A program made the translations under genes and the position numbers. Of a DNA stretch of 36,961 bases, positions 35,205-36,961 are shown one piece after another (the first letter of the stretch is position 1; each line of letters begins with the position of its first letter). The stretch lies in assembly GCA_008933025.1 (NCBI GenBank), contig WBXI01000014.1, positions 1 through 36,961 on the forward strand, written 5' to 3'. The stretch is from Verrucomicrobiota bacterium (lineage in GTDB: Bacteria > Verrucomicrobiota > Verrucomicrobiia > Limisphaerales > UBA9464). Below the pieces are notes generated by a model that had not been told where the DNA came from, did not search any database, and saw nothing but the letters and a program-made list of their open reading frames with translations.

Positions 35205-35384
35205 ATGACCTCCAGATTGGATGACTGCTCCCTGATCGGGCTGCCGATGGTGGTGGATTCCCGGGGTCTCTCGGTTTCCCGGATCCACCGCGGGATGGGT
35301 TGGGCCGATGCCGAGATGTTTGGCCTGCTGGCCAGCGATCTCACGTCGCGTCCTATTGGACCGTCATCACACGCAGTTCCATAG
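35205..35384 (+). pseudogene. Stub of a second FdtA-like ketoisomerase gene
   Basis: A 59-codon frame starting [31 protein letters not shown]. Its first ~25 residues align with the intact FdtA-like protein at 31099-31509 (LDNCCLVDLPKITDPRGNLTF): LD[DN]C, L, LP and DxRG are shared. The later stretch FGLLASDL resembles VCLVLASDF near the end of that protein, so the middle, with the catalytic His pair, appears to be deleted. The protein cannot be active. It lies directly upstream of the aminotransferase, on the same strand, where fdtA commonly sits beside fdtB. The rest of the 349-nt gap (35079-35427) holds no gene I can support. Confidence 0.65.
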
Positions 35385-35427
35385 GAATCGATACCGTACG
35401 ACCGGCCGGGGGAATCCGGCGATTTCC

Positions 35428-36534
35428 ATGATCAACTTTCTCAGTCTCAAGGACGTGAATGCCCGGTATCGCGACGAGTTGGTCGCGGCGGCCACCCGGG
35501 TCATCGACTCGGGTTGGTTCGTCCACGGCAAGGAACACGAGGCGTTCGAAAAGGAGTTCTCTGCTTGGCTCGGCGGCGGAATCACCGTCGGCGTCGCCAA
35601 TGGCCTCGACGCCCTGACGCTCGTGCTGCGCGCATGGAAACAGTCCGGGTTTTTGGCGTCGGGCGACGAAGTGATTGTGCCGGCGAACACCTATATCGCG
35701 TCGATCCTCGCGGTAACCGAGAACGATCTGGTGCCGGTGCTCGTGGAACCCGACGAACGCACCTACAACCTCGATCCGTGCCGCCTCGAGGCGGCACGGA
35801 CGCCGCGGACACGGGTGGTGTTGCCGGTCCACCTCTACGGGCAGGTTGCCGACATGCCGGCGATCGCCGCTTTCGCTTCGCGGCATGGCCTCCGTGTCCT
35901 CGAGGATTGTGCCCAGGCCCACGGGGCCGCCATCGATGGCATCCGGGTGGGCCTTTGGGGCGACGCGGCGGGATTCAGCTTCTACCCGGGCAAGAACCTC
36001 GGGGCCCTCGGCGACGGGGGCGCGGTCGTGACCCGCGACCCTTCCCTCGCGGACCACCTCCGGGCCCTGCGCAACTACGGATCGCACGTCAAATACCAGA
36101 ACCGATACCAAGGCCCGAATTCACGCCTGGACGAAATGCAGGCTGCCTTCCTGCGCGTCAAACTGCGGCATTTGGACGGGGAGAACCAATGCCGGCGGGC
36201 CGTTGCCCGGCGCTATCTCGACGGAATCCGGAACCCCCGCGTGGCGTTGCCCCCGGATGGCAGCGAAGCCGCCAGCCATGTCTGGCACCTCTTCGTGGTC
36301 CGGGTCGAATCTCGCGATCGATTTGTCGGGCACCTCGCGGATTCCGGAATCCAAACCATGATCCATTACCCGGTACCTCCCCACCTCCAGGCATGTTACC
36401 CGGGCCTGCACGGTTTGGACCTTCCGGTGACCTCCGCGATCCATCGCGAGGTGGTCAGCCTTCCGATGAGTCCGGTGATGGGGGAGTCGGATGGTCAAGT
36501 GGTGATCGATGCGGTGAATGCATATCGGGGCTAA
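35428..36534 (+). CDS. fdtB: DegT/DnrJ/EryC1 (FdtB/QdtB-type) sugar aminotransferase
   Basis: A 368-residue PLP-dependent aminotransferase of nucleotide-sugar pathways. Landmarks: [49 protein letters not shown] at the start, [41 protein letters not shown] with the Asp that holds the pyridine ring, and [20 protein letters not shown] with the Lys that binds PLP. The family transfers an amino group from glutamate to a keto sugar. With the FdtA-type isomerase it would give dTDP-3-amino-3,6-dideoxy-hexose; the symbol names this family and not a proved product. The ATG at 35428 is the family start; the ORF-track version adds 40 unlikely residues. Next to it on the same strand is the interrupted methyltransferase gene. 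Confidence 0.93.
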
Positions 36535-36600
36535 ATGCGCCGGTTTGGAAGCGCGTCGTTTCCGCCGATGTCTTTATCGGGTTGGGCAATCGATGAACAA

Positions 36601-36849
36601 ATGAACATCCAAGAATTGGTCAGGGCGCAGTTGAGAAAAAGACTCAGCCATTCGTTGAAACGGACGGTGAAGCACTGCGTTCTCAGCGGGTTGTATGGAA
36701 AGGACCTCCGGAAGTTGGCGGTGGCGTTTGGGACCGACAAGGAGGGGGGGCACCATTACGCCAAGCACTATCAGAACCACTTCGCAGCCTTGCGCAACAA
36801 GCGCCTGAACATCCTTGAAATCGGGGTGGGTGGTTATGAGCCGGTGTAA
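36601..36849 (+). pseudogene. SAM-dependent methyltransferase gene interrupted after its SAM motif
   Basis: A short frame MNIQELVRAQLRKRLSHSLKRTVKHC...LRKLAVAFGTDKEGGHHYAKHYQNHFAALRNKRLNILEIGVGGYE, then PV and a stop. It matches the beginning of a class I methyltransferase family found in glycan and antibiotic loci, whose next residues are normally DP.. GG.SLRMWK..FP. That continuation is absent from all three frames of the remaining ~110 nt of the window. The break falls right after GGYE, followed by a palindromic element, so an insertion, or loss of the rest, is the simplest reading. The rest of the gene could lie beyond the window edge, past the element. An earlier ATG (36535) abuts the stop of the aminotransferase; the 36601 ATG fits the family better. 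Confidence 0.75.
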
Positions 36850-36884
36850 GAAGCTTTCTGTAATTTGCTTTCCGGCTGCTCCCA

Positions 36885-36958
36885 CCCAACCCCTGCGGGG
36901 GAGGTGGAGCGATGGCGAGCGTAGCGAGCCGAGCGCAACCGACCCCGCAGGGGTTGGG
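36885..36958. repeat. Palindromic element at right edge (16-bp inverted repeat)
   Basis: A perfect 16-bp inverted repeat, CCCAACCCCTGCGGGG at 36885-36900 and its complement at 36943-36958, around a 42-nt loop that contains repeated GCGAGC words (GGCGAGCGTAGCGAGCCGAGCGC). It starts ~45 nt after the point where the methyltransferase gene breaks. The form is like small dispersed palindromic repeats (REP/MITE-like); no second copy is visible in the window, so the class cannot be confirmed. Confidence 0.75.
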
Positions 36959-36961
36959 GAC

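Follow-up and report, generated by a model that had tools for sequence, protein, structure and literature searches.

The window, that is, the whole 36,961-nt stretch of Verrucomicrobiota DNA analysed here (contig C14), ends with an aminotransferase gene and a methyltransferase gene that breaks off where a multi-copy insertion sequence begins. The features at this end of the window are:

35308-36534, plus strand: DegT/DnrJ/EryC1/StrS aminotransferase gene, upstream (PF01041, E = 7.2e-100)
36601-36839, plus strand: N-terminal piece of a class I SAM-dependent methyltransferase gene (alternative in-frame start at 36535), cut within the E codon of GGYE
36832-36839, plus strand: host flank GGTTATGA at the insertion point, not duplicated beside any of the genome's 13 right ends
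36840-36961, plus strand: left end of an IS256-family insertion sequence (122 bp visible), one of 11 left ends in the genome
36840-36868, plus strand: left terminal inverted repeat GCCGGTGTAAGAAGCTTTCTGTAATTTGC; the right end read inward is GGCCGCGCAATTTTCTTTCTGTAATTT
36885-36959, plus strand: subterminal hairpin with a 16-pair outer stem, GA-rich internal loops and the core GGCGAGCGTAGCGAGCC at 36914-36930

The last open reading frame of the window starts with ATG at 36601 (or at 36535), and its translation reads MNIQELVRAQ...LNILEIGVGGYEPV, ending ...NILEIGVGGYEPV. The GA of the E codon at 36838-36839 are the final methyltransferase bases, and the stop codon, TAA at 36847-36849, lies inside element sequence. 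A preliminary description of this DNA had noted that a methyltransferase frame stops right after GGYE and that a perfect inverted repeat follows about 45 nt on, and both observations are confirmed, the two arms pairing perfectly over 16 nt. The methyltransferase assignment is likewise backed by tblastn, in which 76 residues of the window piece aligned with 43% identity to a Nostoc plasmid gene annotated as a class I SAM-dependent methyltransferase. The 79 residues of this piece matched neither Pfam nor NCBIfam models, and a search of related loci gave one distant methyltransferase match, with none among 49 family relatives.

The genome has ten further matches to 36840-36961, each 99-100% identical to it as far as it extends, which makes at least 11 copies of the element. 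In this 375-contig assembly, all 11 left-end copies reach a contig end or stop a few bases short of one. Their flanks are unrelated outside the position corresponding to 36840, and the sequence is common from that same base onward. Therefore, the element starts at 36840 with GCCGGTGTAAGAAGCTTTCTGTAATTTGC, all sequence from there on is repeat, and the stop codon of the truncated frame belongs to the element. The genome also contains 13 matching right ends, all near contig ends, since assembly breaks at the repeat. These right ends carry the last ~27-32 transposase codons, which are all that is visible of the transposase in this genome since the inner part of the element was not assembled. Five left and right ends could be paired by common 9-bp duplications (CCCGCGATT, CGTGGTCCA, CACTCTCCA, CCTAGGTTT and CATCCGCCA), with six left and eight right ends remaining unpaired. 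The first base of all 13 right flanks is C, indicating a duplication of 9 bp, or of 8 bp if the C is part of the element. A C also lies nine bases before the element in 10 of the 11 left flanks (L001-L011), the exception being the window copy, which has a T.

Matches to the window's element end were detected in 23 of 95 related genomes, some of them covering the hairpin part alone. Complete copies, read at four loci (L066, L068, L075 and L079), are 1,413-1,420 bp long with terminal inverted repeats and carry one IS256-family transposase. Their left ends have the form GCCGGTGTAAG...CTTTCTGTAA(A/T)TT, and their right ends read inward GGCCGCGCAATTTT(C/A)TTTCTGTAATTT. The 393-aa transposase of L066 scored 338 bits against NF033543 (IS256 family; cut-off 150) and 350.8 bits against PF00872 (E = 1.1e-104). 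The terminal inverted repeats are imperfect and have a subterminal TGTAA(A), with CTTTCTGTAA(A/T)TT in both element ends, and target duplications are present at L066, L079 and L075, a length of 8 bp fitting L066 and L079. Subterminal TGTAAA and 8-bp duplications have been reported for the IS256 family, as has copy-out/paste-in transposition through a circle (PMC7780238). These data indicate that the element starting at 36840 is an IS256-family (IS406-like) insertion sequence lying inside the methyltransferase gene.

The IS406 group is indicated by the best annotated relative listed in a plasmid collection, an IS406-family transposase with 59.9% identity; ISCth4, for whose family the 8-bp duplications and subterminal TGTAAA above were reported, is a further member of this group used for comparison (PMC7780238). 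An IS406-group copy on a Burkholderia multivorans plasmid (L227) has TTTCTGTAA in both ends, like the present element, and, at ~435-500, a long GTA-capped leader hairpin between its left end and its transposase, but its terminal bases differ and the covarying GA-rich core described below is absent in the same form from its leader. A Hydrogenophilus relative (L228) has no comparable long hairpin.

The inverted repeat of the window consists of CCCAACCCCTGCGGGG at 36885-36900 and CCCCGCAGGGGTTGGG at 36943-36958 around the loop GGCGAGCGTAGCGAGCC, and it starts 45 nt into the element. The preliminary description had presented CCCAACCCCTGCGGGG as the palindrome, but this string is one arm of it and is not itself palindromic. 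It had also offered two origins for the interruption, either a small mobile palindrome or a larger element whose start lies at this point, of which the second holds in the form of the IS256-family element from 36840. A stand-alone REP- or MITE-like palindrome inserted in the gene would account for the palindrome being multi-copy, as the search for further copies suggested in that description found it to be; moreover, L194 is an example elsewhere of a short element that has the two IS256-type ends but lacks a transposase. We nevertheless consider such an origin very unlikely, because in every copy compared host DNA meets the element 45 bp beyond the palindrome, and because right ends of this genome carry the last transposase codons. 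A REP or stand-alone palindromic element was accordingly rejected, the boundary of the element being outside the palindrome rather than at it. REP sequences with TnpA-REP (PMC2817692, PMC8266576) resemble the present case as palindromes repeated in bacterial genomes, whereas the palindrome here sits inside insertion-sequence termini and moves with them. It is thus the element's own subterminal hairpin, placed between the left terminus and the transposase gene, and no separate mobile element. The short L194 element, in which 2568-2642 and the following 100 bp hold an IS256-type left end, the hairpin and a right-end-like sequence with no transposase between, is a MITE-like derivative.

With the whole Nostoc methyltransferase as query, exactly two pieces were found in the genome, the one in the window and one on another contig, C226. 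The C226 piece, which has the matching orientation, starts right after an element right end and reads EIGSVDIIIDDGSHRNEHVIETFKILFP...; a methyltransferase C-terminus, for which the preliminary description suggested looking, does therefore lie beyond an element right end, on another contig. The two pieces align to residues 1-69 and to residue 126 onward of the Nostoc protein, respectively, giving homology to the annotated methyltransferase over both halves (tblastn and alignment), and the C-terminal piece has a sub-threshold match to PF13578. We infer that a single element lies between C14 and C226. Frames further along C226 look like dxr, cdsA and lysC, names that we assume from reading their translations. 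The gene adjoining the methyltransferase piece on C226 was not found in 18 relatives; with this result and the single distant methyltransferase match, synteny provides no confirmation of the join, and no assembled sequence runs from C14 to C226.

If the contig were chimeric, ending falsely at a repeat while the real genome keeps the methyltransferase gene whole, this would be in keeping with the position of all element ends at contig edges of the 375-contig assembly. Such an artefact is highly improbable, since the whole-protein search gives just two pieces, each beside an element end, and since target duplications match other left ends to right ends, as in real insertions. It is also improbable, if somewhat less so, that the two pieces were never one gene here and that C14 and C226 flank different copies brought to gene fragments by inter-copy recombination. 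The six left and eight right ends without partners would be expected if copies recombine or if the assembly, which is 86% complete, lacks parts, but the only two pieces in the genome are complementary halves in matching orientation.

Between the two pieces, ~56 codons (~168 bp) of the methyltransferase gene are absent. The target duplication for which the preliminary description suggested looking is present, at 8-9 bp, in the five own-genome pairs and at L066, L079 and L075, but none was found between the window flank and the C226 flank. The loss of these codons together with the duplication indicates that the site was remodelled after insertion, likely by an adjacent deletion or by two insertions followed by recombination. 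The main alternative, which we regard as possible but clearly less probable, is that two separate insertions ~170 bp apart hit the methyltransferase gene and that the short middle piece is present in the genome and lost from the assembly. Such a history would suit the ~56 missing codons and the lack of a common duplication; assemblies easily drop short pieces between repeats, and right ends outnumber left ends (13 to 11). It would, however, require two hits in one short gene, and the search with the full Nostoc protein did not find the middle piece.

Overall, the locus is very probably explained by an IS256-family (IS406-like) insertion that split the methyltransferase gene, with subsequent remodelling of the site, C14 and C226 as its two inferred sides and the palindrome as the element's own subterminal hairpin. 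According to this model, the element would have inserted into the methyltransferase gene beside the DegT-type aminotransferase gene with its transposase reading in the same direction as the interrupted gene, and the hairpin would sit between the element terminus and the transposase start. Afterwards, a deletion beside the left end of the element, or recombination between two copies within the gene, would be the simplest ways to reach the present arrangement.

The hairpin itself is strongly conserved in structure. Nearly all folded copies follow one plan, an outer stem of ~16 pairs or more and then short G-C helices, with GA-rich internal loops between these helices and a triloop cap that is mostly GTA; the hairpin of L115, a rearranged relic, is an exception. 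In a 23-sequence alignment, 96.3% of the cells in paired positions can pair, against a shuffled mean of 74.0%. Changes on both sides affect 129 cells, against a shuffled mean of 35.4, a value of 129 being reached in none of 500 shuffles. A model-fitted alignment of 52 rows gave 95.7% pairing, both-side changes in 23 of 26 pairs and 281 such cells against 70.6, but it is biased toward the model and four of its rows are weak second hits, which makes the 23-sequence alignment the cleaner test. Related sequences are treated as independent in all of these counts. The stem therefore covaries strongly around a conserved GA-rich core. G-U pairs and A-C mismatches in the stem, compared as signs of selection on RNA or on DNA, number 4 and 5 in the smaller alignment and 20 and 10 in the larger, model-fitted one, counts that favour neither of the two. 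No Rfam family matched the hairpins of six loci at E <= 5 (other hairpin loci were scanned at gathering thresholds), and the core string GCGAGCGTAGCGAGC had no match in the literature searched; the motif may nonetheless have been described.

With a covariance model at E <= 0.001, the hairpin was detected in 66 genomes out of 293 from the order, this genome among them. At the stricter E <= 0.0001, it was detected in 3 of 388 genomes across the phylum, two of which, again counting the own genome, belong to the same order. We inspected 48 hairpin loci, picked from element-end and covariance-model matches rather than at random, many of which end at a contig edge. IS256-type ends are present at 29 of them, 17 of these having an IS256 transposase downstream on the same strand. 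Ten loci have the hairpin at the 3' end of a transposase gene with an integrase core (rve), antisense to that gene; the label IS481-like used here for this type is based on one weak PF13011 match together with HTH and rve domains. These hairpins are:

L110, 2597-2672
L111, 1019-1094
L190, 898-973
L200, 2564-2639
L204, 2565-2637
L205, 2492-2557
L206, 2595-2669
L207, 2483-2563
L213, 2515-2588
L214, 2505-2578

One further locus has the hairpin upstream of an IS110 transposase, one (L182) has its IS256 transposase reversed, and seven are unassigned. Across the order, related hairpins are thus found in IS256-type elements, IS481-like elements and possibly IS110 elements, in each case at one terminus. 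The IS110 case, L199 (2465-2539), is a weaker match (53.5 bits) located 186 nt upstream of the frame start of an IS110-family (DEDD) transposase. At L182 (G204:C30, 2480-2554), the core of the hairpin is directed away from the adjoining IS256 transposase, opposite to the usual arrangement. Two hairpins of IS256-type ends, both from the same genome, contain a group II intron (RF02001), at L073 (G037:C132, 2640-4605) and at L219 (G037:C180, ~1540); at L073, the left end of the element is also present in inverted form on the far side.

Most IS256-type copies have ~80-113 nt between the end of the hairpin and the aligned start of the transposase. A search around the L066 hairpin for sigma-70-type promoters and intrinsic terminators found neither. 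In ISPpu9, a folded leader upstream of the transposase gene limits translation of the transposase, and a weaker structure gives 26-fold more expression; this leader, which two small RNAs control, has been proposed to hide the ribosome-binding site (PMC8450116). The present elements are similar in that a folded leader precedes the transposase gene, and different in that the hairpin is also antisense to rve-type transposases. Judging from its position and conserved structure, our best guess is that the hairpin may lower transposase expression from RNA reading in from outside, whereas its antisense placement relative to rve-type transposases argues against a purely leader-based role. We propose tentatively, with slightly less than even confidence, that the hairpin is an undescribed transferable module of insertion sequences, in which a covarying outer stem and a fixed core of GA-rich internal loops and triloop would occur at one terminus of unrelated families (IS256-type, IS481-like and possibly IS110) of one order with the core strand reading inward, and which would insulate the element from outside transcription or be bound by a host factor.

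The insertion itself is an ordinary gene disruption, which accounts for the end of the window, for many contig ends and for the truncated-looking methyltransferase. The recurrence of the hairpin in unrelated insertion-sequence families is the most unusual part and is worth following. The hairpin is a potential marker for element ends in fragmented assemblies, and if it is kept by compensatory change across unrelated transposon families, this would point to a common self-control of the elements or to their control by the host.
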